IMG/VR virus record: IMGVR_UViG_3300017963_000188
Coordinates: 186,001 to 250,000 of that record
Length of the DNA: 64,000 bases
Origin: a virus
Strand: one strand, 5' to 3'
Positions 2,011 to 20,770 of the stretch are shown piece by piece. The notes under the pieces are model-generated. The model was not told the origin of the DNA. It saw only the letters and a list, made by a program, of their open reading frames with translations, and searched no databases. Position 1 is the first letter of the stretch. Each line of letters opens with the position of its first letter. The position numbers and the translations under genes are program-made.

Positions 2011-2014
2011 GTTT

Positions 2015-3328
2015 TTATCTTCCCCATGTACTAGCAAATCTCTTCTTGAAGGCTGAAGCACTCATATTTACGGCTGTAGTGCTAACTTCAATCTTCTTTG
2101 GAGTGTTCTTACGTGTCGGTTTATAACCATCGTTTCGTTTTTCAGGATTTATCCCAGCATGATCCACAGGGGTAAGATATTCAGGGTCATTATCCCCCAC
2201 GTCTTTTGGTAGAGGTTTGGATTTGGCTGTTGATGTAGCTTTAGAGGCTGGACGTATGTCAGTAGACATACTCTGAGCTTCTGTAGTGTAACCACGATGT
2301 AGCTTCTCTATAGTCAACAGAACCTCACATATTAACATGGAACGATCTAGAAACCTTAAAGATCTATTAAATGAAACCATGAATCTCTGAACCAATTCTA
2401 TATCAAACTGTCCCAAGATTGCAACTCCTTGGTTTAGATCAAAATAGTTGGGTACGATCAATCTTTGATGGAGATATTGTAGATGAACAAGATTCTCAAG
2501 GATGTTAGAGTATATGTCTTGAGGAGATAATTTGAACAACATCTCCTGGATCAAGGTGAGTGTTTTAGCCTTATCATCAGACAGTATAGATTCAATGAGA
2601 CCCAATATCTCAGTGGACCACCCAATACCTAGATAGTCCTTTACGTTCTGAGTCGAAATACCACCTATCTTACTCACTTGCTCCAAAGAACTGATAGCGT
2701 CCCTAACATGACCTTTACTATGGCTCACAATCCATTCTAAGGCTTCATGCTCGTACTCAAATTCTTCCTGCTTACAAATCAACTCCAATCGATCCGTAAT
2801 GACCTGTGAAGGTATCCTCTCTAACTGTAACAGCTCACATCTGGACCTTATAGCAGGACGCATTTTTCTGAGTTCTGTAGTACAGAAGATACCAATTAGT
2901 TTCCTATCCTCAAGAGGCTTTAGTAGAACATCTTGACTATCTTTACTCATACGGTGAGATTCATCAAACAGAATGATTTTCTTCCCACCAAAAAGATTGT
3001 AGGATAGATTATCGACCGTAGCACGAACCCAATCAATGGTACCATGACCAGCAGCATCTCTTTCTTCGAAATTGAGGTGGTCTTCATTCATGAAGTTTTT
3101 ACATGAATCACAGGTATTGCAAGGTTCATTTCCCTGACGGTTCTGACAAAGCATAGCTCTAGCAAAGATTCGAGCTAATGTTGTCTTACCACTCCCATGT
3201 GGTCCAGAAAAGACATATGATGTTTCCTGGTCTGTACCACCTTCCAACCTGGACTGTAGCACATTACGGATCTTTTCCTGGCCCAGCACATCACTGAACT
3301 GCAACGGACGATATTTTAGGTCAAGCAT
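2015..3328 (-). CDS. dnaX: Clamp-loader ATPase, DnaX (gamma/tau)-like
   Basis: 437 residues. AAA+ clamp loader: Walker A GPHGSGKT at 42-49, a four-cysteine zinc module (C61, C70, C73, C76) typical of bacterial gamma/tau, Walker B LFDESH at 120-125, sensor-1 region IGIFCTTE, and the SRC motif at 162-164. A lid/collar region follows, then a low-complexity Lys/Pro/Thr-rich tail after about residue 360. Its ATG overlaps the upstream stop (TAATG). It would load the clamp at 6322-7485 together with delta and delta-prime at 19035-20770. Most characterised phage clamp loaders are T4 gp44/62-like, so a DnaX-type subunit with zinc module is notable. Confidence 0.88.
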   Translation of the reverse strand: MLDLKYRPLQFSDVLGQEKIRNVLQSRLEGGTDQETSYVFSGPHGSGKTTLARIFARAMLCQNRQGNEPCNTCDSCKNFMNEDHLNFEERDAAGHGTIDWVRATVDNLSYNLFGGKKIILFDESHRMSKDSQDVLLKPLEDRKLIGIFCTTELRKMRPAIRSRCELLQLERIPSQVITDRLELICKQEEFEYEHEALEWIVSHSKGHVRDAISSLEQVSKIGGISTQNVKDYLGIGWSTEILGLIESILSDDKAKTLTLIQEMLFKLSPQDIYSNILENLVHLQYLHQRLIVPNYFDLNQGVAILGQFDIELVQRFMVSFNRSLRFLDRSMLICEVLLTIEKLHRGYTTEAQSMSTDIRPASKATSTAKSKPLPKDVGDNDPEYLTPVDHAGINPEKRNDGYKPTRKNTPKKIEVSTTAVNMSASAFKKRFASTWGR

Positions 3329-3846
3329 TATGCACTAGCCTCTACTAACTGAGGGGATGTGTTATTCCCTTTCTCTTTCTTGATATCAACACTTTGGTCT
3401 CCATCAACCTCATCAAGATCAAGAACTTTGACATTACGACCAAACTTCTTCAAGTCTTCATGCCAGAATCCATAGGTGCTGATCACCTCTGAGAATTCTT
3501 GGATGTCAGGATCTCTCATTTTGTAGATATACTCATTGGTTTCTTCATCAACATCTACAAAACAATAGCAAAGATAGTGATACAATGCTGCTTCTCTTTG
3601 ACGTGGATTCAGCTCTTGCCAACCATCAGCACCTAACTCAATGATGTAATGACAACCATCCAAAAAGAAATTCTGCATAGGAGAAGCTTTCTTTGTCTTA
3701 CCAAGAACCAACTTCCCTGCCTTCTTAGAGCATTTCTCTTTCATGACGTAGACAATCTTGGCATCAACTAACTCAGGGGCTCTCTTGGCAATGATCCCCT
3801 CTGCCATTTCCTTCACTTCCTCTGAGTACCAATACTCTGTAGCCAT
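3328..3846 (-). CDS. Phage metallopeptidase-like protein with degenerate active site
   Basis: 172 residues, preceded by AAAGGAG. Overall layout resembles the putative phage metallopeptidase family, in which a QR-AL-HELxH helix is followed by an EF-V---G-W segment; here PRQREAALYHYLCYCF (81-96) and EFSEVISTYGFWHEDLKKF occur in that order. The expected HExxH is HYLCY (H90, Y91, Y94), so catalytic Glu and the second His are missing. Zinc peptidase activity is therefore doubtful and a structural or binding role is likelier. The tail is acidic. Family assignment is from memory of the pattern, not a search. Confidence 0.5.
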   Translation of the reverse strand: MATEYWYSEEVKEMAEGIIAKRAPELVDAKIVYVMKEKCSKKAGKLVLGKTKKASPMQNFFLDGCHYIIELGADGWQELNPRQREAALYHYLCYCFVDVDEETNEYIYKMRDPDIQEFSEVISTYGFWHEDLKKFGRNVKVLDLDEVDGDQSVDIKKEKGNNTSPQLVEASA

Positions 3847-3885
3847 AACTTATCTCCTTTGGTAAAAGGGTTTCCAGTCCCTCCA

Positions 3886-4572
3886 TTAAATATCATGGTA
3901 TGCTACCTGGTCAAGGATATAATTCTTCAGTTTTGTATCACCCCACTCATACCATGCCTCACCAATATCCTTGAACTTCGAGCTTAAAACTATACATTTG
4001 AAAGGTGATGACTTTGTACTAAAGTAGTTCCATGCTTTTTTCCTTATACTATCTGAAGATTTTTGTCCAGTTTTATCAGAATCAAAATATAGAAATACTT
4101 TATCAACAAACCTCTCTAAAAATCTATATTGTTGTGATGATAGATTTGCTGTGCTGACACACAAAGTATTAGCATAAATCCTTTGAAGAGGGAAAAAGTC
4201 AAAAGCTCCTTCAACTAAGAAGACACTTTTGGTTCTCCAAATCTCCTCAAGGCATCCTCTGGTTGTCCCAAAAAACCAAGGTCCTGGTGACTTAGCAACC
4301 CATTTGTAGTATTCTTTCTCTGCTACAGCTCTGGTGATAAATCCTGTTGGTGATTGGTCGAGACGTGTTAAAGGAAATAGCACATATCCAGTATTGACTC
4401 GTGGACCATCATAAAACACATTCCCATCTTTGGATATCTTCACAACCCTGGAACTCCAACCGACACGGAACTGTCTTATCTGCTCTTCAGACACTCCACG
4501 AGAAAGTAGAAAATCCACAGCCTCTGGATGCCTTTGCAGATTGGCTTGCCATATCTTTATAAATTTCTCCAT
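3886..4572 (-). CDS. DnaG-type primase catalytic core without zinc-binding domain
   Basis: 228 residues. The N-terminus matches the segment that follows the zinc domain in DnaG (AVDFLLSRGVSEEQIRQFRVGW), then VLFPLTRLD--PTGFITRA. A TOPRIM domain follows: VFLVEGAFD (E121) and LYFDSDKTGQ (D164, D166), with KDIGEAW near the C-terminus. It would synthesise RNA primers. DnaG normally has an N-terminal zinc-ribbon and a C-terminal helicase-binding domain (about 600 residues in all); both are missing, and no neighbour supplies an obvious zinc ribbon. Template recognition may come from another protein. Confidence 0.72.
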   Translation of the reverse strand: MEKFIKIWQANLQRHPEAVDFLLSRGVSEEQIRQFRVGWSSRVVKISKDGNVFYDGPRVNTGYVLFPLTRLDQSPTGFITRAVAEKEYYKWVAKSPGPWFFGTTRGCLEEIWRTKSVFLVEGAFDFFPLQRIYANTLCVSTANLSSQQYRFLERFVDKVFLYFDSDKTGQKSSDSIRKKAWNYFSTKSSPFKCIVLSSKFKDIGEAWYEWGDTKLKNYILDQVAYHDI

Positions 4573-5090
4573 TTCACAAGCCTTATCTGTTCCAATGGGT
4601 TTCGAAGCATATATGTAGCATATGCTTTATCCAGGTCCTTTCGAGAAATAATAGTGAAAAAACCTAACTCTACCGTTCCAGGCACGATCATTATACAATC
4701 ATTCAATTTATAATTGATTATCCCCACTCCTTCTAGAGCTAATTCTTCAAAGATTTGGTTTTTTCTGCTAAAGAACTGACCTATTATCCATCGAGGTTGT
4801 ATACCTATTTCAACATAATATTCCAATACATCTTCTAGATCATTATGGATTTCTAGAGTATCTATAAGGGAATCACTCACACGACTGAAAATATCTTCAT
4901 TAGGTTCTACTGGAAAAATACCGGTACGAAACTTATAAGGAGGTTCATTTGAAATTTTAGGTACACCAGTGCTTTTTGAGACAGCTATTGAAGATAAATC
5001 GAACCCTTCCCATTCCATCATTAATGGGACATGATCAGCAGCTCCCAATTCATAGTAGCTATCAACAAGGATTTTACTTAGAATTTTCAT
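4557..5090 (-). CDS. Hypothetical protein in primase operon
   Basis: 177 residues from ATG 5090 (AGAAGAG upstream). A longer in-frame start would lie far inside the upstream gene. It overlaps the primase start by 16 bp and the previous gene's end by 17 bp, so it is translationally coupled to both. No cysteines suggest a missing primase zinc domain; the sequence is mixed alpha/beta with a DLEDVLEYYVEIGIQP stretch. No family recognised. Confidence 0.6.
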   Translation of the reverse strand: MKILSKILVDSYYELGAADHVPLMMEWEGFDLSSIAVSKSTGVPKISNEPPYKFRTGIFPVEPNEDIFSRVSDSLIDTLEIHNDLEDVLEYYVEIGIQPRWIIGQFFSRKNQIFEELALEGVGIINYKLNDCIMIVPGTVELGFFTIISRKDLDKAYATYMLRNPLEQIRLVKWRNL

Positions 5091-5703: not shown

Positions 5704-5704
5704 A

Positions 5705-6325
5705 TCATGGTCCTTTTATCTCTTTCAAAACTAGTTTTGAGCCATCCAAATCTCCAGCATAAGCTGTGTCTGCAAAGCTCAGGAACTTTGGTTGATGAGT
5801 TACAAGCAATACATCAAATTGAGTCTTTTTACATAATGACTTCAGGAAAGATCCTGCATTATCAATGTATTCTTCCGAAACATTCCCTAAAGATTCATCG
5901 AGAGCTAGGAAGGGATATAGCTTCAGCTTCATTGAAGCTATGAACCGGAAAAGAAGAGACACTATATTGGCTACACCACCCCCAAAAGAATCAAGGACAT
6001 CTCCTTCGATCCCCTTCATCCCATCAGTAAGTAAAAAATCGATGTTGACCTTCCCACGTTTGATGCTTGAATCAATTTTTAAGGAAAGGTCTTGGTCCTC
6101 GAAAATGGCCTGTAAGCCCTCTGTGATGATAGCCCTGATACTTTCCTTGTCTTCGTGGATTAAAGCTTGCAGAATGGTTTTTATGGCCTCTGAAGCCTGT
6201 TCTAGGACAGACATCTGGTGCTCTATCTTCTTAATCTCATCTTCCAATGAAGATTCGTCTCGAAGATACTTGGATCGCACCCCTTCTAGTCGGGATATTT
6301 TGTCTCCAAGATCACCTAACATCAT
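5705..6325 (-). CDS. SbcC/Rad50-type ATPase, C-terminal half
   Basis: 206 residues. A short coiled coil (about 5-58) leads into an ABC/SMC-type C-terminal lobe: signature-like SFGGGVAN at 113-120 (in place of LSGGE), Walker B PFLALDES at 138-145 and H-loop LLVTHQ at 173-178. There is no Walker A and no zinc hook; both are in the gene at 9609-10775. The two polypeptides together make one SbcC/gp46-like ATPase, which with SbcD would process DNA ends. Its ATG overlaps the clamp gene's TGA. Being encoded apart from its other half, across four genes, is unusual. Confidence 0.78.
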   Translation of the reverse strand: MMLGDLGDKISRLEGVRSKYLRDESSLEDEIKKIEHQMSVLEQASEAIKTILQALIHEDKESIRAIITEGLQAIFEDQDLSLKIDSSIKRGKVNIDFLLTDGMKGIEGDVLDSFGGGVANIVSLLFRFIASMKLKLYPFLALDESLGNVSEEYIDNAGSFLKSLCKKTQFDVLLVTHQPKFLSFADTAYAGDLDGSKLVLKEIKGP

Positions 6326-7485
6326 TCATTCCAATAGGACAGTATATTCATGACTCGACAGGAAACCTTTTCCTCTTCTTCTCCCTCTTCTGGTTCCCCA
6401 AGGGAGATGTCCAAAGATCCAATGATCTTAAACTTCTTATCCTCAGGGTTGATGCCCATTAGGATTGTATCTTTAGGGAAAGCTCTCAACACACTGATGA
6501 GGTTTGAAAACTGAACCTTGACTGTCAATGCTTCTTCAGGCATGTCTTGGGGAGAAACAGACAAACGAGACTGGAAATTTGGAGGTCGAACCATCTCCAA
6601 AAATCCTTCAGGATGGATGGTGATATCCATCTCGTCAAACAGTTGTGAACCTTTTGTCTTCAGTAGCTGTAGGATATTTGAAAACTTCTTGTTCTCGATG
6701 TTGAATGTGATGGGAGGTTCATCTTCAAGTGAAAGCTCTTCTTCCAATTCCTTTTGAGCCTTCACATTGAAAGCATAGACAAGCACAGATCCGTTTTCAC
6801 TCTCCAGGGCATAACCATTGCCAAATTGAAGAGCCTTGATCTTCTGACCCTTGTATTGGGTCAGGAAAGAAAGGATAGGAGCCATATCATCCATACCAAA
6901 ACTAAGAGCTGGAAATCCCTGAGATGATTCAAAGACCCCAATCTTGATCTCATCCATATAAATGAGCTTATCTCCTGAAACAAGAACTCTAGGAGAGAAA
7001 ATTTCCTTGTTAGAAAAACTCTTGATGTACTTAACCCCTTCAACAAGGACATCAGCATGAATCTCTCCGAGGTCTTGAGTGTCCTTCAAGAGTTTTTCAA
7101 TTGCTGGGACTTTGACTGTCAAGAATGGGTATTTCTGGTCTGTGAAATTCTCTTTCCCAGAATCAAGCCACATACCTCTGATTCGAAGGTTCTTTTCAAG
7201 GTACTGAATCTTGAGTTCCTCAGAAGGAAGAGTGCTGACAAAGTTCTCAACACCTGTCCCAAGTATAATGACAGCATTCTCTTCTGGTATTTCACCATCT
7301 GTGGATTTTATGCTGAAATATGCTCTGGTAGCAAAACGTCCTGAACAAGAGTACAGAACACCTTTAGTAGGGTTGAGCACTTCTAACCTAATAGACTGTG
7401 ATGCTGTATTGTAGCTGGAAAATTCCAGTGTCGAAAGAGCACGTAGAAATTCTTGCCTGTCTACTGTAAGTTCCATTGAAGCCAT
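6322..7485 (-). CDS. Beta-type sliding clamp (DnaN-like)
   Basis: 387 residues, close to the roughly 370 of bacterial beta clamps, rather than the 220-260 of T4 gp45/PCNA. The N-terminus MELTVDRQEFLRALSTLE matches the DnaN start pattern, and three repeated mixed alpha/beta regions follow, with an acidic insert (EEGEEEE) near the C-terminus. AAGGAG lies seven bases before ATG 7485. As processivity factor it would be loaded by the DnaX/delta/delta-prime proteins in this same operon. The sequence is divergent, so the call rests on the start motif, length and context. Confidence 0.68.
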   Translation of the reverse strand: MASMELTVDRQEFLRALSTLEFSSYNTASQSIRLEVLNPTKGVLYSCSGRFATRAYFSIKSTDGEIPEENAVIILGTGVENFVSTLPSEELKIQYLEKNLRIRGMWLDSGKENFTDQKYPFLTVKVPAIEKLLKDTQDLGEIHADVLVEGVKYIKSFSNKEIFSPRVLVSGDKLIYMDEIKIGVFESSQGFPALSFGMDDMAPILSFLTQYKGQKIKALQFGNGYALESENGSVLVYAFNVKAQKELEEELSLEDEPPITFNIENKKFSNILQLLKTKGSQLFDEMDITIHPEGFLEMVRPPNFQSRLSVSPQDMPEEALTVKVQFSNLISVLRAFPKDTILMGINPEDKKFKIIGSLDISLGEPEEGEEEEKVSCRVMNILSYWNE

Positions 7486-7497
7486 TTGTATCTCCTT

Positions 7498-7791: not shown

Positions 7792-7826
7792 GATTTCCTC
7801 CAGGTCATATTACCAAGAGTGTATTT

Positions 7827-8666
7827 TTATTCGTCATCATCAAGACCTAACTCCACAAATCCTGAAGTACCTTCTGGAAGGATAGATTTGTTCTTGTTGG
7901 TCTTATCTGCTTTAAATTTGCATTCCCCAACATAAGGGCAAAACTTACAAGCCTTACTACTTGGGGTTGCCTTGAATTGACGCTTCTTTATCTTCTGCAT
8001 TACATCGATAATTTCTGCTTTCAATTCCTTCAGAGTATCGATAGTGAATTCTACTTCCAATAGAGGATCTTCTGGAAATCTATAGAACCAATACCATAAA
8101 GAGTTTGGCATTTTTCTATGCAAGAGGTAATAAGACAAAGCATACCAAAAGAGCTGTCTATGATCTAGATACCTGTCTTTATACTTGCTCCCTTTACCAT
8201 CAAATATCCTGATCTCACCATCACCTTTAAACACGAAATCAATTCGACCACCAATTTGATCAGCTTTGGTAATGTATGCATAGGTATTGACTTCAGATTT
8301 TGCATATGGAGCTAACAGTTTATAGTCTCTTACCGTATCGATACCATGATCTACAGCTACAATACATTCATCTATAATTAGCTGTTTCCCACCCTCATGT
8401 TCACCCCAAAAGATGTTCTTTTTAGCTACGATTTCGGCAAATACTTTGGGGACTTTATCTTTCAGGATAGTTCTGGCTTCTTTCCCTTTCCTCCAAATCT
8501 GGTCATTGTAAAACATTTCAAACATCTTCTGAACTACTGTACCATAAACAGTATTATACTCATCTTGCATGGTAATAGGTTTGTCCCTATTTATATTCTG
8601 TCTCAGATGCTTCAAAGGGCATTCAACATAATTTTTGAATGCATAAAATGTAAGGGCTCTAGGCAT
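7827..8666 (-). CDS. Cas4/RecB-family PD-(D/E)XK nuclease with Fe-S cysteines
   Basis: 279 residues. Nuclease motifs run in order: GTVVQKMFE near 42, GGRIDFVFKGDGEIRIFDGKGS (about 139-160, with the catalytic D-x(n)-DxK pattern) and a QLFWYAL motif. Cysteines C16 and C240/C243/C249 match the iron-sulphur clamp of Cas4, AddB and related exonucleases. It overlaps sbcD by 8 bp and probably resects DNA ends with SbcCD, the RecD-like helicase and RecA. No CRISPR array or Cas1/2 is present, so a role in recombination is far likelier than adaptation. Confidence 0.78.
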   Translation of the reverse strand: MPRALTFYAFKNYVECPLKHLRQNINRDKPITMQDEYNTVYGTVVQKMFEMFYNDQIWRKGKEARTILKDKVPKVFAEIVAKKNIFWGEHEGGKQLIIDECIVAVDHGIDTVRDYKLLAPYAKSEVNTYAYITKADQIGGRIDFVFKGDGEIRIFDGKGSKYKDRYLDHRQLFWYALSYYLLHRKMPNSLWYWFYRFPEDPLLEVEFTIDTLKELKAEIIDVMQKIKKRQFKATPSSKACKFCPYVGECKFKADKTNKNKSILPEGTSGFVELGLDDDE

Positions 8667-9612
8667 TTTCAGCAGCCTCCAAGTAATGGTATATAGTGTC
8701 TTTCACCTCTTGAGCCAGCCCTAAAGATGAAATACTCTGTGTCAGTTTATCTTTTGGGTCCTCTGTAGATACTTTGATGAGATTCTCAATGAAATCTTCA
8801 ATCTTACGAGTCTCTTGTTGGACCTTTTCTTTACGTTCAAAATCAAAAATTTCTTTTGCTTCTCTCACCAATAAATCAATAGGAGTAACTTGGACATTCA
8901 CATCACCATCATCCACAGTGATCTCTATGAAACCTACACGAGGGGTGCGAGTAATGTCATCATATGTCAAAGCCCCCCTAGAGATAGCCCCAAGATTTAT
9001 GAAATGCTTACCTTCAACTTCTTGGATACCCTGGTCTTTATGTATATGACCGAGAACCCAAATGTCAGGGTCTAGTTCAGCAAGTTTCTTATAACTATAG
9101 AACTTCTCTCCTGGATATAATGGGAGATCCGCAACTGAACCATGGAACACTGCGATGAGTATCTTCTCATCACCTTTCTTGCATCTACTGAGCAATTCTT
9201 CATCCACATCTACACGATAATCAATACCAATTATACGAACATCACCAATTGTGATATCTTGCAGCCTATTGAATGTCTTGGTCTTGAACAAAACCCCTAG
9301 TGGTTGCTTATCAATAGTATCAACATTGCTATACATCACATCATGATTGCCAATAATAGCATACACTGGAACCTTGTACTGATTATGTAAAAGAGCCACA
9401 TCACCAGTCAGTTCATGACTGTTCTTTGTAGGTGCTTTCACATGATAGAAATCACCAGCATCAAGAATAGCATCACATTCATGGTCTACTGCTAATTTGT
9501 AAATCTGATCTAACTTATTAAGTATTGCTTCTTTGTAGTCATCGATCCTAGAGACAGGAGGTCTGTCAGAAAGATGGCAATCAGATCTAGTGATGAACCG
9601 ATATTTCTTCAT
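8659..9612 (-). CDS. sbcD: SbcD/Mre11-type nuclease (T4 gp47-like)
   Basis: 317 residues. Calcineurin-like metallophosphoesterase motifs are complete and ordered: D11-x-H13 (SDCHL), DAGDFYH at 51-57, GNHD at 88-91, FHGS near 155 and GHIH near 190. A C-terminal helical region would bind the SbcC coil base. Its ATG overlaps the TGA of the SbcC N-terminal half. With the two SbcC pieces it forms the Mre11-Rad50-type complex that opens hairpin or blocked ends and prepares them for recombination. Confidence 0.88.
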   Translation of the reverse strand: MKKYRFITRSDCHLSDRPPVSRIDDYKEAILNKLDQIYKLAVDHECDAILDAGDFYHVKAPTKNSHELTGDVALLHNQYKVPVYAIIGNHDVMYSNVDTIDKQPLGVLFKTKTFNRLQDITIGDVRIIGIDYRVDVDEELLSRCKKGDEKILIAVFHGSVADLPLYPGEKFYSYKKLAELDPDIWVLGHIHKDQGIQEVEGKHFINLGAISRGALTYDDITRTPRVGFIEITVDDGDVNVQVTPIDLLVREAKEIFDFERKEKVQQETRKIEDFIENLIKVSTEDPKDKLTQSISSLGLAQEVKDTIYHYLEAAENA

Positions 9613-10775
9613 GCTAACGAAGTCTCACACAAGGGGCAGACCTTAAGCTGAGCTTTCACGTCTGCTATTTCATTATCTAACTCTCTCAATTCAGATTCTA
9701 TCTCTGAAGACTCCTTCTCCAAAGCCACAAATTGACGTTTGATAGTCTTTAAAGACTCAATCTTGCCCTGCATCCAAACCACAGAGTCAAAATCTAGTTC
9801 TAAGACTTTGGGTATTTGGATAGACTCTACTCCTTCAAGTCTCGACACTGAATCCAAAGCTGGAATTAGTTGTCGAGACAGGCTTTCAAGTTCACGAGCT
9901 TCTTCCAAATCAGCATCTAAGTTTTCAGTTGGTATCTCGATTTGTGCTAAGTCACTCTCCATCATTGATCTGATTTCAGGTTGAAATTTCTTACACCTAT
10001 CATGAAAATCCTGTATTTCATAGATTTCCACAATGAGTGAATTCAAATCTTCTTCTGGGACAACTATGGTATCAATTTTGGTCAGAGACTTCACCCTAAT
10101 ACCACATCTTTTTAGCTTACTTTCGAGTCCCAAAATCCTTGTCAGTTCTACCTTCAATTCCTCTAGATCAGCTCCCTCAGATCTCAACACATCATATCGA
10201 GCCCTTATGTCAGGGACTTCTTTGAGAGTCTCAATACCTTCTTGGACCCTTTGGAGGTCAGCTTTCCGAGTCTTAAGGGTACTCTTCAGATTACGTTGAT
10301 CTTTTTCGATCAATCTTTGAGCACCATTCAAAATATTAATCCGAGAGATATCAAATAGGATATCAGCACAGGCTCCACCCGTTTCATTCACCAGAAACAA
10401 TGGGTTGAATTGATCAGCTATTTGTGGGGAGAGATCTTTGTTACCTGTAGTGATGACTCGGAATCCAGCATCTGCCAATTCAGATGGCACTTCAAATCCA
10501 ACATTATTGTAGGATTCATTACCTATGGTATATTGGTTCCCTTTCCCTTTTTCCCAGGAAAGAAAGAAACCATTGGGATCTTGAAGAGTGACAGTACAAG
10601 TTTTTTCACCCTCTCGAATATAGTAGCTTCCCTTTGAGTTCCTCAACGCACCTTTGATAGCACGTATTATAGCACTCTTACCAATATTTGTTTTCCCAAC
10701 AATTACTGTGAATCCTTTAATCCTAAAGGATACATCTTTAATTGATTGGAAATTCTTGATCCCAATATCTATCAT
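9609..10775 (-). CDS. SbcC/Rad50-type ATPase, N-terminal half ending at zinc hook
   Basis: 388 residues. N-terminal ATPase lobe with IKNFQSIKDVSF and Walker A GKTNIGKS (27-34), Q-loop region around residues 110-125, then about 220 residues of coiled coil, finishing in CPLC (C380-C383) five residues from the end. CxxC is the Rad50 zinc hook, normally at mid-protein. Signature, Walker B and H-loop are missing and are found in 5705-6325. ATGA overlaps link it to recA upstream and sbcD downstream. The gene stops cleanly with no sign of a frameshift or decay, so the split looks functional. Confidence 0.82.
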   Translation of the reverse strand: MIDIGIKNFQSIKDVSFRIKGFTVIVGKTNIGKSAIIRAIKGALRNSKGSYYIREGEKTCTVTLQDPNGFFLSWEKGKGNQYTIGNESYNNVGFEVPSELADAGFRVITTGNKDLSPQIADQFNPLFLVNETGGACADILFDISRINILNGAQRLIEKDQRNLKSTLKTRKADLQRVQEGIETLKEVPDIRARYDVLRSEGADLEELKVELTRILGLESKLKRCGIRVKSLTKIDTIVVPEEDLNSLIVEIYEIQDFHDRCKKFQPEIRSMMESDLAQIEIPTENLDADLEEARELESLSRQLIPALDSVSRLEGVESIQIPKVLELDFDSVVWMQGKIESLKTIKRQFVALEKESSEIESELRELDNEIADVKAQLKVCPLCETSLA

Positions 10776-12013: not shown

Positions 12014-12634
12014 TCAATTTTCTCCAAACAGAAAAAATCTGTCATTCTCACGGTAAGCCATCCCACGTTTTTTCAACTTCCCTTTTACCTTCTTCACACC
12101 AAGAAATATCCACTTTTCCTTTGGGGTAAGTTCTTCCTCAGGGGTGGTCCCATTAAAATAAAGAATGAATCTATAGGTAAGATAGGCTACATTAAAAGCA
12201 TCAGCAGTGTCAGAGTTCCAACCCCCTTTTACATCAGAAGCTTTTTTTGCAGCATCTATCATATCTACTTTGAACATCTTGCCCTTCTCTCTACCCAATA
12301 TTTCTTTGGCTCTACTTTTCACTGTCAACGGGTCCCAAAAGTATACGTTCTTTTTTGCTTTGTGAAGGGCTTCCATAGCAAATAAAAACAATCCATATAG
12401 ACCTTCTGACCAAAGCTCTCCAAATGGAGGACTTTCAATACCTACTGCGGTTAGATCTTCAGTATTGATGCAGAGATCATAGATTGACTCACGAAGATAG
12501 ACGTAGCGATCTATGAACAACATCTTCGAGTCGGTCTGGAATTTTCCTCGATTCACAACTATAGGTGATGCCTGGTCATCTATCAAACACCACCCATAGT
12601 TGGTCATCGAGGGGTCAAGACCAAGGACCCTCAT
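12014..12634 (-). CDS. RuvC-like Holliday junction resolvase
   Basis: 206 residues, RNase H fold: GLDPSMTNYGW at the N-terminus with D7, VGIESPPFG with E67, and SDTADAFNVAY with D142 and D145, the four acidic residues expected for RuvC-type resolvases. The C-terminus is basic (KKVKGKLKKRG). It lies directly before recA (TGA adjacent to recA ATG). It would cut Holliday junctions or branched replicative DNA before packaging. Confidence 0.82.
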   Translation of the reverse strand: MRVLGLDPSMTNYGWCLIDDQASPIVVNRGKFQTDSKMLFIDRYVYLRESIYDLCINTEDLTAVGIESPPFGELWSEGLYGLFLFAMEALHKAKKNVYFWDPLTVKSRAKEILGREKGKMFKVDMIDAAKKASDVKGGWNSDTADAFNVAYLTYRFILYFNGTTPEEELTPKEKWIFLGVKKVKGKLKKRGMAYRENDRFFLFGEN

Positions 12635-12638
12635 GTCA

Positions 12639-13319
12639 TTAAAGGTCCGCTAGAAGATCAGAATAGTCCGAAGAATCGGCACCACCTTCTTCAACCCCAT
12701 CAACGTCGTCACCCAAAGCCTCTTTGAGTTCTTCTGTGGTCATCTTCCGACCCAAAAGATTTGGCAGGGACTCTTCCAGCTTCTTAACCTTAGCAAGTAT
12801 GTCATCTCTGATCTCATCCTTCTTCATCCACAGAGCTTCACCTGCTGGTACAATATCCAACTTCTGATACTGTGTGTCCTTACAAGTCACTTCCAGATCC
12901 GTTTGATGGAGAGGGTTGGACTTATTACGACGCTTCAGGTCGTTATACTTGTCCCCATTGATGACCCAGGGCCATACCTGATACTTACGGAAATTGGTCT
13001 TGTCGATATTACCATCTCGATCAGTAATATACTGAACAATGATAGTAGCAATTCGACTTTTTGGTGCTCCCATACGTTCGCAGCAGAACCCATTAGTACA
13101 GATCACGTAGCCTACCGAGGGATGGTAGTGAGCATTCACGACAAGAAAGGAAATCTTGTCCATCAAATACTTCCCTTCCTCGTCTTTTCTACGCAGAGCA
13201 ATTGCAATGCGATCTGTAGCATTTTTGATCGTACCTTTATAGGTATCGATACGACTGGTCTTGACAACATCATCACCGTCATCAAAACTAACTTCATTGA
13301 TCCAACTTGGCTGTGACAT
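12639..13319 (-). CDS. Putative single-stranded DNA-binding protein
   Basis: 226 residues, GGAGG before ATG 13319. The central region is beta-rich with aromatic and basic residues (KYQVWPWVINGDKYNDLKRR) and four cysteines (CTNGFCC, TCKD), then a helical linker and an acidic tail ending SSDYSDLLADL. The acidic tip and position among recombination genes are typical of phage SSB proteins, although no OB-fold motif can be proven by eye. The next gene ends in a similar DILKDL tip. An alternative is another ssDNA or recombination accessory factor. Confidence 0.5.
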   Translation of the reverse strand: MSQPSWINEVSFDDGDDVVKTSRIDTYKGTIKNATDRIAIALRRKDEEGKYLMDKISFLVVNAHYHPSVGYVICTNGFCCERMGAPKSRIATIIVQYITDRDGNIDKTNFRKYQVWPWVINGDKYNDLKRRNKSNPLHQTDLEVTCKDTQYQKLDIVPAGEALWMKKDEIRDDILAKVKKLEESLPNLLGRKMTTEELKEALGDDVDGVEEGGADSSDYSDLLADL

Positions 13320-13331
13320 GGCTTACCTCCA

Positions 13332-14129
13332 TTATAGGTCTTTTAAAATGTCCATCAAATCTTGGTCTTCACCTTTGACTTCTGGCTCTTTTGTTTCTGG
13401 TTCTTCTACTTCAATGGTCTTCAAGTCATTTTCTTTCTTCCCTTCTTCCTCAGAGTTTTCTCCCGTGTCAGGAGAAGAGTTATCAGACTCTGCATCAAAG
13501 TCATCTAAAAAACTGATGTCCTCAGATGCTGACTTTTCCTCATCGTCATCGGTCTCTATAGAAGGTGGATCGTCAGGTATACCATCTAATAAAATTGAAG
13601 GGTCTTTGTTGACATCTTCTTTTTCTTTTTTTTCTTTCCCACCTTCTGAACCAAGATACCCTTCCAAAGAAATCTCTGTAGTCATTAACTGCTTAGCAGT
13701 GCGGATATCGGCATTGGCATCTTTCAGATCCCGAATCTTGACCTTTACAACTTCTTCCAAGGCTTTAAGGTCTCTTTCTTGTTCTTCAAGGTCTGCAATT
13801 TCTTTGAGATTGTCTATTAACTGTTGGTTAGCTGAAGCTACTCTATCTTTGTACGAAGTACCTCTACGTACAACTTCATCAGTAGCTATGAGCTGATCAA
13901 GATCAATTTTATATTCAGCACGAGAGGCTTCTAATTTCCTGGTCACTTCCCAAAGTGACCGCTTTATAGACTGAAGATAACCACTGACTTCATTCAAGTA
14001 GGTACGACACTCGACAAGCTTCTCACGAAGATAAACAGGACCAAGAACAGTGATATCACCATCCTCTAAAGTAATGACCATCTTAGGTATACGGTCAAAT
14101 ACTTGTTTTATCCAAGCCTCATTTATCAT
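13332..14129 (-). CDS. Coiled-coil protein with long acidic tail
   Basis: 265 residues from ATG 14129 (AGAGG upstream); the longer TTG-started form is less likely. The N-terminal two thirds is helical/coiled coil (about 30-150), followed by a low-complexity Asp/Glu/Ser tail of some 90 residues that ends DLMDILKDL. The final residues match the tip of the neighbouring SSB-like protein. It lies between the SSB candidate and a gene it overlaps by 11 bp. Function unknown; perhaps a recombination mediator or loader. Confidence 0.6.
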   Translation of the reverse strand: MINEAWIKQVFDRIPKMVITLEDGDITVLGPVYLREKLVECRTYLNEVSGYLQSIKRSLWEVTRKLEASRAEYKIDLDQLIATDEVVRRGTSYKDRVASANQQLIDNLKEIADLEEQERDLKALEEVVKVKIRDLKDANADIRTAKQLMTTEISLEGYLGSEGGKEKKEKEDVNKDPSILLDGIPDDPPSIETDDDEEKSASEDISFLDDFDAESDNSSPDTGENSEEEGKKENDLKTIEVEEPETKEPEVKGEDQDLMDILKDL

Positions 14130-14436
14130 CTTCCCTCTTGTCCTCCTCTTCAAGTTTCTTACTCAACTGTTCAATCAACATGTCGAACACACCTGAAGTA
14201 CGATCTTTCTTGAGAGTGTAAGAATCACTTGTGATCATGTTACGGGAAAGTAAGGTAGCAAAGCTCATAACAGAGAGCCTCTTGCACAACTTCATGTACT
14301 CAACTTCAGCTTCTTCAAGCGACCAGTCTTGACCTTCAGGCACAGCGGTAAAAGATAAAAAGATATCTTTACCCCAGGATCTTTTCTCTTGGTCCCCAAA
14401 TGAGGTCATAGCTGCTGTTATTGACTTTATCTTCAT
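14119..14436 (-). CDS. Small hypothetical protein
   Basis: 105 residues from ATG 14436, with GAGAGGTGA upstream; a GTG two codons earlier is too close to the ribosome site. Sequence contains FLSFTAVPEGQDWSLEEAEVEYMKLCKRL and a charged helical C-terminus (KKLEEEDKREDDK). It overlaps the coiled-coil gene, suggesting co-expression. No family recognised. Confidence 0.6.
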   Translation of the reverse strand: MKIKSITAAMTSFGDQEKRSWGKDIFLSFTAVPEGQDWSLEEAEVEYMKLCKRLSVMSFATLLSRNMITSDSYTLKKDRTSGVFDMLIEQLSKKLEEEDKREDDK

Positions 14437-14467
14437 TTTCACCTCTCAACAAAACCACTATACGAAC

Positions 14468-16408
14468 TCAATTATTTTTTTGTATCTCACCATTTTGGTA
14501 TAGAATTTCTATAATTCTCTTACCTAATAATGAATTTCTTTGAATAGGTTTATTGTTCTGAATGGCTTTCCCGATAGCTTTTTTCTCCCCTAACAGAATA
14601 AGTTTTTTCCTAGCTCTCGTGATCCCTGTATATAGAAGATTTCGTTGTAACAATGGGAAGAAACTCATCACCAATGGAAGGATGATATAGTCAAATTCAA
14701 GACCTTGTATTTTGTGTACCGTAATAGCATAGGCCAGTTTCATACCCATTGTGTGGAGAGCATCGTCATTTGTTTTCAAATGAAGATATCTGAATGGCTT
14801 GAAAATCTTGATTACAATTTCTTTTGTCTTGAAATCTATAGACCTTATCTTACCAATATCTCCATTGTAGACCTGTAACTTATACATATTTTTAGTGATA
14901 ATTATACGATCCCCCACTCGAAATCGAATACCACCAATAGTCATTTCCTTTTTGTCTTTTGAAGCTGGATTTAGAGAATCTCTCAGATGTTCATTTAGAG
15001 AGTCTACACCAACATCACCACGATACATTGGAGCTATGACTTGAAAATCTTTTTCATCTTTAAATAGCTTTTGAGAAGCTTTTATGATGAAATCTCTAAG
15101 CTCAACCTGATCTGATCCACTGATATACATGAAATCAGCAGGCTTCTTATCTGTGATAGTGATGCTCTGACCTTTATTGATTCTATGAGCATTCAAAACA
15201 ATATCAGAAGCCTCTTCTTGACGGAAAATCTCAGTTAAAGATACTGTGGGGATTTGTTTGGACCCTATTAATTCTCTCAACACGTTTCCTGGGCCAACAC
15301 TAGGTAGCTGAGCTGTATCCCCAATCAATATAAGACGGGTGTTGGTATCAATAGCTGCTAATAAGTGGTAGAACACAACTTGATCTACCATTGACACCTC
15401 GTCAACAATGACAACTTTTGTACTATACTTTCGGTGCTCATTATACTCCCAATGACCACCTCGGTATTCCAAAGCTCTATGTATAGTGAACGCATCTAAT
15501 TGAGTCATTTCCTGGAGATTTTTTGCAGCCACTCCAGTAGGAGTAAGTAGTAAAGGGTCCTCACCAAGAATATTTTTGAACATGCTACACAAGCATTTAG
15601 TGAGGGTTGTCTTTCCAGTACCAGGTAGTCCAGTAAGAATAAATGAATTGTTTTCTAAAGCCATATGCACAGCTTGATTTTGATTCTCAGAAAATTGAAT
15701 ACCCTCTCTTTTTTGGAAATTATCTATAAATTGTGTGATGTCTAGATCTTCAGTTCTTTTATAGATCAAATCACACATCATCTCTGAGGATCGCTTTTCA
15801 ACATTGTAAGCCCATCCGCTGTAAACCATATTATGGTCTAGCACCACAGTTTCTAGAGAATCATTTTTGATCATCTTCATTAGGTCATCTAGAGAGAATT
15901 TGAGATTCAAATTATCACAGACTTTTGACAACACACTTTCTTGAGATAAATATAGATGCCCTGATGATGAGGCTTGAGACAAGATATGTTTGACATATCC
16001 AAGAATACGAACCGGAGAATCTTCTTTCAGACCAATTTCATTTAAAGCAATATGGTCAATCTTTTTGAATTGCACCCTACCAAACCCAATCAAAATATAT
16101 GGGTTCTCGAACAGGTTATTGAGAGAGGGAAGTTTCTGATGCTTGTCATGAAAAGCATAGAGAGCATTCTTAGCTACTTTGTAGGAGAACCCCCATCCCA
16201 TGATAAGGAAAATCTCAGGACTAAATGATTCAATGTAACTCCAATATTGGAGTACACTTCTTGGTCCTCTAAGAGTTTTATGGTTCTGAGTGATAAGTTC
16301 GTAAGGACCTCGATACTTACCAAAATTGATTTGATTGAAAGATGATGGAGGTATCTTTACGATCTCCTCCATCCAGGTCTTCAGACCATTTGCTATCTCA
16401 AGTTCCAT
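14468..16408 (-). CDS. RecD-like SF1 DNA helicase
   Basis: 646 residues from ATG 16408, which overlaps the reductase TAA (TAATG). An N-terminal helical region of about 230 residues precedes the helicase core: Walker A GLPGTGKT (260-267), Walker B VIVDEVSM (333-340), motif III GDTAQLPSVGPG (363-374), LTEIFRQ (391-397) and, near the C-terminus, ITVHKIQG and LLYTGITRARKKL. This layout matches RecD2-type 5'-3' helicases, which act without RecBC. It may unwind ends for the Cas4-like nuclease or serve replication. Confidence 0.82.
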   Translation of the reverse strand: MELEIANGLKTWMEEIVKIPPSSFNQINFGKYRGPYELITQNHKTLRGPRSVLQYWSYIESFSPEIFLIMGWGFSYKVAKNALYAFHDKHQKLPSLNNLFENPYILIGFGRVQFKKIDHIALNEIGLKEDSPVRILGYVKHILSQASSSGHLYLSQESVLSKVCDNLNLKFSLDDLMKMIKNDSLETVVLDHNMVYSGWAYNVEKRSSEMMCDLIYKRTEDLDITQFIDNFQKREGIQFSENQNQAVHMALENNSFILTGLPGTGKTTLTKCLCSMFKNILGEDPLLLTPTGVAAKNLQEMTQLDAFTIHRALEYRGGHWEYNEHRKYSTKVVIVDEVSMVDQVVFYHLLAAIDTNTRLILIGDTAQLPSVGPGNVLRELIGSKQIPTVSLTEIFRQEEASDIVLNAHRINKGQSITITDKKPADFMYISGSDQVELRDFIIKASQKLFKDEKDFQVIAPMYRGDVGVDSLNEHLRDSLNPASKDKKEMTIGGIRFRVGDRIIITKNMYKLQVYNGDIGKIRSIDFKTKEIVIKIFKPFRYLHLKTNDDALHTMGMKLAYAITVHKIQGLEFDYIILPLVMSFFPLLQRNLLYTGITRARKKLILLGEKKAIGKAIQNNKPIQRNSLLGKRIIEILYQNGEIQKNN

Positions 16409-19038
16409 TATGAACATCCTAATGAGTTACCACAATTTGGACACCGATAACAAGTTCCGTTTGGAGTAGTGAGGAACCCACAATTAGGACAAGGAGGCCC
16501 ATCAGAAATGGTACTTGTCTGCAAGGCTGGTAATTCCTCTACTGGCTCATCCTTCAGTTCTGCTTCAACATGAGTATGGTCATCAGAATAGAAGTATGAC
16601 TTCAACCATCTGAAAATGTAATCAAGAATGGATTTTGCAAACTGTATATCTGAGTTTTTGGTCCAACCTTGAGGCTCAAATCTGGTGTTCTCAAACTTGG
16701 TTATAAATGCATCTAAGGGGACTCCATACTGAAGACCAAGACTCACGGCAATCCCAAAATTGTCCATGAGACCATTTATAGTAGACCCTGCCTTTGCCAT
16801 ACGGATAAATAACTCCCCTGGTGATCCATCTTCAAAAAGACCTACGTGAATATACCCTTTGTGTCCGATTATATCGAATTTGTGTCGAATAGTTTTGATC
16901 TCATCTGGCAAGTTTCGTCTAAGGGGCTTCAAGGCAGCTCTTTTCTTACCTTTTGTCTTGGACATCAAGGGCTGGAAAATTTTGGAACCTTGTCTATAAA
17001 CAGCTATAGATTTCAGACCCATTTTCCAAGCGTCTAGATATATATCCTTGATCTCTTCTATTGTGACGTTTTCAGGCAAGTTGACAGTCTTGCTGATAGC
17101 ACCACTAAGGAATGGTTGGACGGCTGCCATCATCCTGATATGACCCATAGGCTCTATGCATCTATTATTGAGAGGGATAGCACAATCAAATATTGGCAGG
17201 TGTTTCTCAAGAAGCCCAGGTGCTCCTTCTATGTATCCATTCTCAAGAACGTAGTCTTGGATTTTCTTGATCTCATCATTTTTATAATGGAGAGTCTTCA
17301 GAGCTAATGGAATAACAGGATTCACTAATTGCATAGCCCCACCACCAACAAGAACCTTACTTTTCACCAAAGCAATGTCAGGTTCTACTCCTGTGGTTGC
17401 CACATCCATCATGAATCCAATAGTTCCTGTAGGAGCAAGCAGAGTGACTTGACTGTTACGAATCCCATGCTTGTTACACTTTGACACTACCGAATTCCAA
17501 GTATCAAGACTGATCTCTAACAAGTCTTCAATAGGATCTTCTCCTATGATTTTCTTATGGGCTCTTATGTGCTTGTTCATCACTTTGATGAAAGGTTGTT
17601 TGTTGAGTTCCCATTCCTGAAATGGTTCTTTTAGAACGGCAATATCAGCACTGAAATCATATGCCGTTGAAGTCATGAGACTAGTAATTGCAGCAGCAAT
17701 GCTTCGAGAAAAATCTGAGTCATAAGGATGACCCAAAGCCATAAGAGCACCACCAAGATTGGCATACCCCAAACCCAATTGACGATATTTCCTGGCTCCC
17801 TCAGTTATTTTTGGTGTGGGATAAGAAGCCCGGTCAATTAAAATCTCTTGAGCTAGAATAGTCACCTGTACTGCATGTCGGAAAGCTTCAATGTCAAAAA
17901 ATTTCTCTTTATCCAAAGAGACAAACTTCATAAGATTCAATGAAGCAAGATTACAAGCACTATCATTAAGAGACATAAATTCACTACAAGGATTGGAAGC
18001 TACAATCTCACCAGAATTGGCTAGTGTATTCCAATCATTGATAGTGGTATGGTACTGAACACCAGGGTCACCACAAATATGTGCTGCTTTCGCTATGTCC
18101 CCTAGAATCTCAGAAGCTTTGTACTTAGGACCTTTCTTCCCACTGACTACCTCTTTTGTATACCAATTACCATCATTCTTGACAGCTCGGAAAAACTCAT
18201 TTGGGATACGTACTGAGTTGTTACCATTCTGGAAGTAAGTATGATTATAGACGTGTTCAAAATTGGCTTCACCATCTCGGATCAATTCTTGGAGACGTTT
18301 TTCTTCAAGAGCTTTGCACCAAATGAATTCCTCAACATCTGGATGCCCTACATCCAAAATGATCATCTTGGCAGCACGACGTAATCTCCCACCACTTTTG
18401 ATGACACCAGCAAAAGCATCAAAACCTTTCATGAAAGATACAGGACCAGAAGCTATACCTCCTTTTGATAGAGGCTCCGTTGAAGACCTGAGGACAGAAA
18501 AATTGGTCCCTGTCCCACCCCCGTTTTGAAAGATACGAGCCTCGTTGGAGACAAGTTCCATAATAGAACCCATTGAATCTTCCAAACCTTGAATGAAGCA
18601 AGCAGAGATCATAGGCTCTTCATCTAGCCCTATGTTGAAGAACACTGGGCTATTAAAAGCCATGACTTGATTGTAGATCATATACATAAGTTCATTACAA
18701 AATACATCTGCCTCATCTTCATCTAGATATTCACCTTCAATAGCCCATTTACGAATCGTACCACAAACTCGTTCAGCTAGTTCTTTTAGGCTTTTCTCTT
18801 CATTTTTAGCTCTGCTTGTTTTTGCAAAGTATTTCTCAGAAACTATGTTGATAGCTTGCTGACTCCAAAACTGAGGATAGGAAACCCCTTTCTGTTGGAA
18901 TATTGCATTGCCATCTTTGTCTTTTACTTCTGCATTTTTCTTTTCCCATTTTATGCCTGCATCTGGTTTCCCACCTTTACAGAAAAAAGACTCCACTTTC
19001 ATTTTCGTAGTATCACCAGATACCTCTAAACTTATCAT
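16408..19038 (-). CDS. nrdJ: Class II (B12-dependent) ribonucleotide reductase
   Basis: 876 residues from ATG 19038 (GGAGG seven bases upstream, ATG overlapping the delta gene TGA). It converts ribonucleotides to deoxyribonucleotides using adenosylcobalamin. Seen: ACFIQGLEDSMGSI, FQNGGGTGTNFS, SNPCSEFMSLNDSACNLASLNL and VTLLAPTGTIGFMMD, all characteristic of NrdJ, plus a C-terminal cysteine cluster with two CPNCG motifs and a final Cys, the redox relay end. No small subunit gene is present or needed. It supplies dNTPs for phage replication and implies that the host makes or imports B12. Confidence 0.92.
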   Translation of the reverse strand: MISLEVSGDTTKMKVESFFCKGGKPDAGIKWEKKNAEVKDKDGNAIFQQKGVSYPQFWSQQAINIVSEKYFAKTSRAKNEEKSLKELAERVCGTIRKWAIEGEYLDEDEADVFCNELMYMIYNQVMAFNSPVFFNIGLDEEPMISACFIQGLEDSMGSIMELVSNEARIFQNGGGTGTNFSVLRSSTEPLSKGGIASGPVSFMKGFDAFAGVIKSGGRLRRAAKMIILDVGHPDVEEFIWCKALEEKRLQELIRDGEANFEHVYNHTYFQNGNNSVRIPNEFFRAVKNDGNWYTKEVVSGKKGPKYKASEILGDIAKAAHICGDPGVQYHTTINDWNTLANSGEIVASNPCSEFMSLNDSACNLASLNLMKFVSLDKEKFFDIEAFRHAVQVTILAQEILIDRASYPTPKITEGARKYRQLGLGYANLGGALMALGHPYDSDFSRSIAAAITSLMTSTAYDFSADIAVLKEPFQEWELNKQPFIKVMNKHIRAHKKIIGEDPIEDLLEISLDTWNSVVSKCNKHGIRNSQVTLLAPTGTIGFMMDVATTGVEPDIALVKSKVLVGGGAMQLVNPVIPLALKTLHYKNDEIKKIQDYVLENGYIEGAPGLLEKHLPIFDCAIPLNNRCIEPMGHIRMMAAVQPFLSGAISKTVNLPENVTIEEIKDIYLDAWKMGLKSIAVYRQGSKIFQPLMSKTKGKKRAALKPLRRNLPDEIKTIRHKFDIIGHKGYIHVGLFEDGSPGELFIRMAKAGSTINGLMDNFGIAVSLGLQYGVPLDAFITKFENTRFEPQGWTKNSDIQFAKSILDYIFRWLKSYFYSDDHTHVEAELKDEPVEELPALQTSTISDGPPCPNCGFLTTPNGTCYRCPNCGNSLGCS

Positions 19039-19916
19039 GCTAGTTCCTCCAATAAAAACGACCGTAATAATATATAGCCATCTAATCCTGTATATTTCAT
19101 ACCTATATCTAATTGGCACAACCTTTTATGCCAACTCAGTAACTTAGGCAAGGTTATTTTTGAAGATAGCTCTTGTAGTTTTGTTAGGAAATACGGATGG
19201 GCATTTAACTGACCTGCAAGTTCTTTGATTTCCCCTCCACGAGCCATGAATGATTTTATATATATAACTTTCTCAACAGCTTCCAAAAAGAAAGCCAAGA
19301 TTTGCAATGGAGGTATTTCTTGATGTTCTAGATTAAGAAAAGTCTTGAGTGTGGTTTCTCTTTTTCTGAGGAAATCATTAAATAAATCTAGAGTTGTCTT
19401 TTTCTTTGGGTTGCCAATCCACTTGAGATCCTTTTGTAGAATCTTACCAGCAGTTTTGAAATGATTCCCCAACTTGACTAATTCAGAGTGTGTTTGATAG
19501 AGATCTCCCCTATCCAGACGTTCTGCTAAATACATATATTCATCTTCAGATAACGAGATACCAAATTCCTTCAAGACACCTCTAATGAATACTACAAATC
19601 TTTCTTCATTGAGGTCATTGCATTTGAATGTATTTTCTTGAGGTACTTTTTCTGGTATGTGTTCGAGATACCCCCTGTTAGTCACAGCCCAAACAATGTG
19701 ATGATTTTCCAACTTTATTTTCTTGAGCACGTCGTAACTTATCTTACGGACATCACAAAAAATTATGATCTTCTTGAGAGGACTGCTTTTGATTAGGAAA
19801 TAGATCTCATTAGGGTCCTCTTTTTGGATAACTGTGTCAATACCGGTACGATCTTGGATCATCTCCAAGATTTTCATTCTCAAGAATTCGTTTGTACCTA
19901 TCAGACACCAATGCAT
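19035..19916 (-). CDS. holA: Clamp-loader delta subunit (HolA-like)
   Basis: 293 residues from ATG 19916 (TAATG with the delta-prime stop). An N-terminal region with TGIDTVIQ and IIIFCDVRK resembles the degenerate AAA+ fold of delta. The C-terminal collar is most convincing: LNAHPYFLTKLQELSSKI followed by LDIGMKYTGLDGYILLRSFLLEELA, matching the HolA pattern in which a D/K-x-G helix ends the protein. Delta opens the clamp. The adjacent delta-prime gene strengthens the call. Confidence 0.72.
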   Translation of the reverse strand: MHWCLIGTNEFLRMKILEMIQDRTGIDTVIQKEDPNEIYFLIKSSPLKKIIIFCDVRKISYDVLKKIKLENHHIVWAVTNRGYLEHIPEKVPQENTFKCNDLNEERFVVFIRGVLKEFGISLSEDEYMYLAERLDRGDLYQTHSELVKLGNHFKTAGKILQKDLKWIGNPKKKTTLDLFNDFLRKRETTLKTFLNLEHQEIPPLQILAFFLEAVEKVIYIKSFMARGGEIKELAGQLNAHPYFLTKLQELSSKITLPKLLSWHKRLCQLDIGMKYTGLDGYILLRSFLLEELA

Positions 19917-20770
19917 TATTTTCTCAGCTCTATCTTTGCATCTACCACAGCTTGAAAGAAATGATGCCAAGCTCTAACACTAGGGTATCTCTTCATAGTC
20001 TGGTAGAATTGATTTAAATGGTTATAGATAACGAGTAGGTCTTGACTACCTCTTTTCTCTTCTATCAATGAAAGTCTTTCTTGGACATATGGAGAGGATT
20101 CTGTGAAATGAAGATGCAGTACAAACAACACCCAATGGATTAAATCTCCAAGATCTGTCTCTCGTACTTTAAGAAGATTCAGTAACGTCTCTTTTTCAAA
20201 AAAACTCTCTATGAACAATATAGCTCTTTCCTGTTCCACACGACTTTTGTTAAGTTGGAACAGTGGTATTCCACCATACTCTGCTTCTGATGTTGGTGGT
20301 ATATAAATTTCCCAGCATCGAGATCGAAGAGTGGGGATAACTTCTGTGTGGTAAGGAGTGAGGAAAAGAAACAGATTGTAAGGCTTTACATCCTCTACTA
20401 TTTTCAAAAAAACATCGCTTCCCTCAGGGGTGATTTTATCAGCTTGGTCTATGACAATAGCTCTGACTTTAGAGGCTAGTGGTGGCTTACTGACAGCAGC
20501 AGAAATCTCTCGAATATCATTTACACCCCAAGACTTCTTTTCTAATTCATAGAGAATGTAATCTTCTCTAGGTATTGATATGCAAGAAGCACATTCACAT
20601 TTTGAACTTTGATTACCTTCACAATTGGCATATTTGAATATGAGCCTGGAGAAAAGTTGCTTCCCCATGCCTTCTTCACCAGTGAGAATAAGAGGATGAA
20701 AGGTGCCTTCTCTGACATAACTTGTCAGAAATGCTCGGACACCATCTCTTTCCCAAATCTCACCAAACAT
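19916..20770 (-). CDS. holB: Clamp-loader delta-prime subunit (HolB-like)
   Basis: 284 residues; strong GAGGAGG before ATG 20770. AAA+ protein with a degenerate P-loop GEEGMGKQ (31-38, no Ser/Thr after Lys), a four-cysteine zinc module (C50, C58, C60, C63), a weakened Walker B VIDQAD (106-111), and an intact arginine-finger SRC motif (150-152). Lost ATPase residues with retained SRC are the hallmark of delta-prime, which stimulates ATP hydrolysis in the neighbouring gamma/tau subunit. It pairs with the DnaX-like gene at 2015-3328. Confidence 0.8.
   Translation of the reverse strand: MFGEIWERDGVRAFLTSYVREGTFHPLILTGEEGMGKQLFSRLIFKYANCEGNQSSKCECASCISIPREDYILYELEKKSWGVNDIREISAAVSKPPLASKVRAIVIDQADKITPEGSDVFLKIVEDVKPYNLFLFLTPYHTEVIPTLRSRCWEIYIPPTSEAEYGGIPLFQLNKSRVEQERAILFIESFFEKETLLNLLKVRETDLGDLIHWVLFVLHLHFTESSPYVQERLSLIEEKRGSQDLLVIYNHLNQFYQTMKRYPSVRAWHHFFQAVVDAKIELRK

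Follow-up and report, generated by a model that had tools for sequence, protein, structure and literature searches.

Whether a phage may assemble a replisome of its own around the clamp and clamp-loader parts of the bacterial DNA polymerase III (Pol III) is the question raised by a 64,000-nucleotide stretch of viral DNA (in the following, the window), which spans bases 186001-250000 of the 358,038-base virus record IMGVR_UViG_3300017963_000188, i.e. of a 358-kb phage. A preliminary description of the window had placed in one operon the genes for a DnaX-like protein, delta, delta-prime and a beta-size sliding clamp, along with a primase core, and had suggested that the phage could build a replisome independent of the host loader. 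All four genes are indeed present on the minus strand (DnaX, 2015-3328; clamp, 6322-7485; delta, 19035-19916; delta-prime, 19916-20770), together with the primase core (3886-4572). The suggestion itself is supported and also extended, by a family A DNA polymerase and the second part of a split primase encoded elsewhere in the record and by the precedent of Streptococcus phage Dp-1. It is likely that these genes specify a self-contained phage replicase, in which the clamp and a DnaX/delta/delta-prime loader serve the phage's own family A polymerase, DnaB and split primase. The minus-strand genes from position 21410 down to 74 are tightly spaced or overlapping, with gaps between -86 and +81 bp, so that ‘operon’ appears a fair term for this run, as far as transcription can be read from gene layout.

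The first component, DnaX (437 residues), is a predicted gamma/tau-type motor of the clamp loader, which scores 90.4 bits against PF13177 (cut-off 27) and 30.6 bits, also above cut-off, against DNAX_ATPase_lid. It carries a Walker A motif (GPHGSGKT), a Walker B motif (DESH), the SRC motif and the four zinc cysteines already noticed in the preliminary description (C61, C70, C73 and C76), all of which are invariant across 13 aligned phage DnaX sequences. A proline-rich linker and a short, conserved C-terminal tail complete the protein; in the same alignment the tail approximates SPxEWRxxFExL, with a weaker match in the window DnaX itself, and it is unlike the tail of bacterial tau. In a quick tree with long branches, the DnaX proteins of the huge phages form a group of their own outside the sampled bacteria (Shimodaira-Hasegawa-like approximate likelihood ratio test, SH-aLRT, 88). 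In four related records (L154, L155, L156 and L157) the DnaX frames reach about 700-920 residues, with an insert after the GK of Walker A that begins with Cys; three of these inserts visibly end with HN before TTLARIL, and such features are intein hallmarks.

Delta (HolA, 293 residues) passes the equivalog cut-off of TIGR01128 holA (90.7 bits against 80) and carries the delta C-terminal collar domain (PF21694, 49.1 bits, cut-off 27), in keeping with the delta-type collar protein proposed earlier for this gene; its alignment with relatives contains no Walker A motif, a pattern expected of a dead ATPase. Its ATG overlaps the stop codon of the delta-prime gene in the sequence TAATG. Delta-prime (HolB, 284 residues) is a clear homologue of PF13177 (85 bits, cut-off 27) and also matches TIGR00678; in the alignment of relatives it shows the degenerate P-loop (GEEGMGKQ, without S/T) and the intact SRC that had been read from it, besides zinc cysteines. 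Judged from families and motifs, the loader follows the bacterial subunit pattern of one intact P-loop, one dead P-loop with an SRC finger and one subunit without ATPase motifs, i.e. the cellular three-subunit logic.

The clamp (387 residues) is less readily recognized. Taken alone, it matches neither Pfam nor NCBIfam and is weakly similar only to PHROG 947, ‘DNA polymerase processivity factor’ (E=0.0014). When the clamp and two deltas were compared with phage records by tblastn, no match was returned either. As single-sequence searches failed, homologues were sought by synteny and by iterated profiles. Synteny with the public record LR745208 pointed to a site for a homologue, and an open frame of 377 residues was present at that site; the profiles then led to 21 clamps, namely those of the window and of LR745208 plus a single one from each of 19 related IMG/VR records. 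When a profile of 18 clamp homologues was compared with the PDB, all 31 matches (to E=1) were Pol III beta, the best at 3.4e-9, and the clamp profile aligns over its full length to 8dt6; 17 of the 18 homologues match PHROG 947 and two match PF00712. No stretch of the broad clamp alignment is conserved enough for scanning, and identity between the window clamp and known beta clamps does not exceed about 12-15%. An AlphaFold (AF2) model computed from ten sequences consists of three strand-helix-led repeats (predicted local distance difference test, pLDDT, 64; predicted template modelling score, pTM, 0.63). Every one of its 50 best Foldseek matches in the PDB is a beta clamp (E between about 1e-11 and 2e-13), and phage clamps rank first in the viral library. 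On this modelling, the product of 6322-7485 is a three-domain, beta-type clamp, as its size had suggested, too diverged for Pfam alone to detect.

Whether these genes travel together was examined across the lineage. Scans of IMG/VR with single proteins returned only two contigs, 3300017971_000194 and 3300028840_004170, in which DnaX, clamp, delta and delta-prime are 100% identical in protein sequence to those of the window and which, on this identity, represent the same virus in other assemblies. The lineage was opened by the capsid protein, a search with which returned at least 387 IMG/VR contigs, the retained ones at least 80% identical; 19 long ones were searched. (Hundreds of IMG/VR contigs agree at about 80% identity in the major-capsid-like protein, at 28801-29676, as against less than 20% in the clamp, a very uneven divergence.) DnaX and the clamp are found in 19 of 19 relatives, the clamp also in LR745208, and delta exceeds the holA cut-off in 17 of 19, i.e. 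in 17 of 17 where the region is present, the other two contigs stopping short of it. A family A polymerase occurs in 10 of the 19, and every record long enough has one with an exonuclease domain. The gene order from the primase to the RecD-like helicase is constant in the 19 relatives, RecD missing only from L182, at the contig end, and clamps no more than 14-18% identical to that of the window still occupy the same gene position. Such co-conservation and constant order argue for a working module rather than a chance capture, and they back the idea that the parts act together. At the level of sequence matches, the E values of DnaX, delta and delta-prime exclude chance; for the clamp, profile, fold and constant position in 20 other phages do so.

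A further comparison is provided by LR745208.1, a 485-kb, unannotated public record of a huge phage, which shares with the window syntenic class II ribonucleotide reductase-like, delta, delta-prime, recombination, clamp, primase, DnaX, NusG-like and sigma-like genes. It differs in that its DnaX contains an intein at Walker B (L025:19995-21881), its polymerase lies in a 1758-residue frame with at least two intein-like inserts (L035:39690-44966), and its delta-prime is 205 residues long (L025:5873-6490), lacking the P-loop region and keeping SRC.

Which polymerase the clamp would serve is answered outside the window, at record positions 313925-316330, where a family A polymerase of 801 residues (PF00476, E=5e-71) with a 3'-5' exonuclease domain is encoded, adjoined by DnaB and by a separate CHC2 zinc-ribbon protein. 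Pol III alpha was rejected as the partner: PF07733 has no match in the window record or in any of the 19 relatives, with controls positive in 10 of 14. The partner polymerase is of family A. The primase core of the window (228 residues only) is of the DnaG Toprim type (PHROG 47, E=8e-24; Toprim_2, 32 bits against a cut-off of 22), which bears out its earlier naming; given the separate CHC2 zinc-ribbon gene (PF01807, E=5.5e-11; record 312941-313540, L016:8941-9540), about 120 kb away, it is one of the two parts of a split DnaG primase.

The polymerase also has an addition of its own. In 39 of 39 lineage polymerases examined (L016:9925-12330 and L222-L264 among them), a C-terminal domain of about 75 residues follows a proline-rich linker, in which nearly all of the 39 have a PxWL motif between the polymerase and C-terminal domains. 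The domain has no PDB or Pfam sequence match. A likeness to Pol III alpha was first guessed from the predicted layout and then tested. In a Foldseek search with the AlphaFold model (pLDDT 70.6) the E values are not significant, and the highest query template modelling (TM) scores belong to Pol III alpha chains (mostly 0.39-0.45); hhalign aligns the domain with the final 65 columns of DnaE, at rank 1 of 135 windows and decoys, by the tiny margin of 21.8 v 21.5 over a dnaX window. The weak resemblance to the end of Pol III alpha is suggestive, a lead only. It is conceivable, if doubtful, that the domain derives from, or is built like, the tau-contacting terminal domain of Pol III alpha and is bound by the DnaX tail, which would amount to a Pol III-style tether on a Pol I-type enzyme. 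A QLxLF-type candidate for a clamp-binding peptide, picked out by eye at the polymerase tail of the window phage (...LADLFGL), was dropped on finding that it is not common to the relatives.

With identities, motifs, gene order, co-conservation and the lack of Pol III alpha as observed, the mechanism that we infer, including complex formation, stoichiometry (3:1:1 for DnaX, delta and delta-prime in a Pol III-type loader), ATP use and contact between polymerase and clamp, would run as follows. The DnaX/delta/delta-prime ATPase would open a dimeric clamp of the three-domain beta type and place it at primed sites; DnaX, as the sole loader subunit with an intact P-loop, would hydrolyse ATP, while delta-prime would contribute its SRC finger and delta would open the clamp. 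The clamp, and perhaps also DnaX, would then keep the proofreading family A polymerase on DNA, which the polymerase probably achieves by touching either of them through its conserved C-terminal linker and 75-residue domain, and phage DnaB and the split phage primase would run the fork. In favour of this reading, the beta clamp of E. coli acts on an enzyme of family A, namely Pol I (PMC6010275).

The genes that surround the module are also conserved and bear on its possible uses. Behind dnaX, and overlapping its end by 47 bases, lies a frame for a NusG-like protein (1510-2061, minus strand; KOW, E=0.0014, below cut-off; PHROG 6386 antiterminator, E=0.0019), which is a conserved neighbour in LR745208 (relative in L025). 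It is followed by two tandem small sigma-like proteins (74-676 and 758-1513) with region 4-like helix-turn-helix repeats recognized by eye; sigma-like and NusG-like genes stand at the same place in LR745208. The C-terminal half of an SMC/Rad50-like ATPase (5705-6325, minus strand; PHROG 15167 ATPase, E=4.6e-21) shares 4 bases with the clamp gene and adjoins it in 19 of 19 relatives and in LR745208. The SbcC/Rad50-like protein appears to be split, an N-terminal part with a CPLC end (9609-10775) standing beside the SbcD-like gene and the half with signature and Walker B at 5705-6325; each of the 19 relatives, and LR745208 too, retains both halves. Between clamp and delta, a minus-strand recombination block (7827-16417), in an order common to the 19 relatives, comprises Cas4-like nuclease, SbcD-like, SbcC-like N-half, RecA-like, RuvC-like, two unknown and RecD-like helicase genes, named from sequence and from synteny with LR745208. 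Delta is adjoined by a ribonucleotide reductase-like gene (16408-19119), in which a CPNC motif at the C-terminus resembles a zinc ribbon; the start of this gene is uncertain, as the listed GTG falls inside delta. Elsewhere, a TROVE/Ro60-type RNA-binding protein is encoded in the phage (PF05731, E=2.6e-16; L017:4941-6623), and two further frames, one GroEL-like (record 176183-177751) and the other RtcB-like (record 332853-334166), were recognized by eye alone.

It is in this setting that the main competing explanation arises, namely that clamp and loader act in recombination, repair or late transcription, while the family A polymerase works clamp-free. In every relative the clamp lies amid SbcCD-, RecA-, RuvC- and Cas4-like genes, and dnaX is packed against the NusG-like and two small sigma-like genes, a sigma-like relative being found there in LR745208 as well, so that a clamp-linked late transcription is possible. 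In T4, clamp-dependent late transcription is established, the clamp also activating late promoters. A complete three-subunit loader would, however, be costly for an accessory role, the primase core lies within the same gene run, and the polymerase tail is lineage-specific and suited to tethering; as an account that dispenses with the replicase, this explanation is unlikely, and the recombination or late-transcription role and that of a replicase are not mutually exclusive. That clamp and loader belong to Pol III-type families could also mean that host Pol III alpha is recruited to phage DNA and uses them there. This is improbable: an own family A polymerase with an exonuclease domain is encoded in every record long enough for the region, and host alpha would need a conserved groove, which is not evident in a clamp so distant from the known beta clamps. 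Least credible of all is that these genes, which belong to families of bacterial origin, were captured recently from a host and form no working phage module; this is contradicted already, as clamps that have so little sequence in common retain their gene position, and the DnaX tree, in which the huge-phage group stands apart, gives it no support.

The replicase reading has to be set against several observations that tell the other way. DnaX scores 236.8 bits against TIGR02397 (E=4e-70), slightly below the NCBIfam equivalog cut-off of 250, and none of the DnaX proteins in the 19 related records reaches it either, so that they are homologous and not equivalogs by the NCBI rule; similarly, delta-prime scores 97.8 bits against TIGR00678 (E=5.8e-28), below the equivalog cut-off of 180.6. 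The model of the clamp is of no more than moderate quality (pLDDT as above; TM about 0.5; root-mean-square deviation about 10 Å), and a single-chain model of this quality does not establish domain placement or ring closure. Finally, no QLxLF-type clamp-binding peptide is recognizable in the family A polymerase.

Placing the module among known systems helps to separate what is new from what is not. With the bacterial Pol III clamp and loader it shares all four families, the motifs and the subunit logic, and it differs in having a family A polymerase instead of Pol III alpha. The T4 system (gp44/gp62 and gp45) is alike in that an AAA+ loader and a clamp serve a phage polymerase; T4, however, has a family B polymerase and a clamp that is a trimer of two-domain chains, whereas the window clamp is predicted to have three domains, is of beta size and comes with both delta and delta-prime. 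Much closer is Streptococcus phage Dp-1 (HQ268735 / NC_015274; genome paper Sabri et al. 2011, as cited in PMC4342423), which encodes DnaN, DnaX, a delta-prime-like gp18, a HolA (gp19, 88.5 bits against the holA cut-off of 80), a family A polymerase, DnaB and DnaG; genes for RecA and a Cas4-type nuclease separate its clamp gene from the loader genes. As Dp-1 carries the same parts list, the gene set is already known. Dp-1 differs in being a 56-kb phage, in that its primase is far from the loader genes, its polymerase ends directly after the catalytic domain, the huge-phage clamp profile does not pick up its clamp and its DnaX falls inside the bacteria (SH-aLRT 87-90 separating, in the same quick, long-branched tree). 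The huge-phage delta profile does reach gp19 (E=1.8e-11). The DnaX tree, with its long branches as a caution, points to apparently separate captures in Dp-1 and in the huge-phage lineage. In the survey of Iyer et al. 2021 (PMC7824862), jumbo phages of subgroup 3.1, to which the window phage is likened by gene content alone, have a T7-type (family A) polymerase and an RFC-like clamp loader with no detectable clamp; the phage described here shares polymerase and loader but has a clamp, seen only by the family profile, and its delta and delta-prime can also be named.

What is new, then, is a diverged, lineage-wide version of the set, a clamp in family A jumbo phages, which had been credited with a loader but no clamp, and a polymerase C-terminal domain that is conserved in the lineage and absent from Dp-1. 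The window clamp is so diverged that single-sequence searches miss it, and a reported lack of clamp in such phages may therefore often reflect a detection limit. The module lends itself to asking how an enzyme of the Pol I type is turned into a processive replicase with borrowed Pol III accessory parts, a combination found in at least two phage groups, that of Dp-1 and the huge-phage lineage, and apparently reached separately in each.

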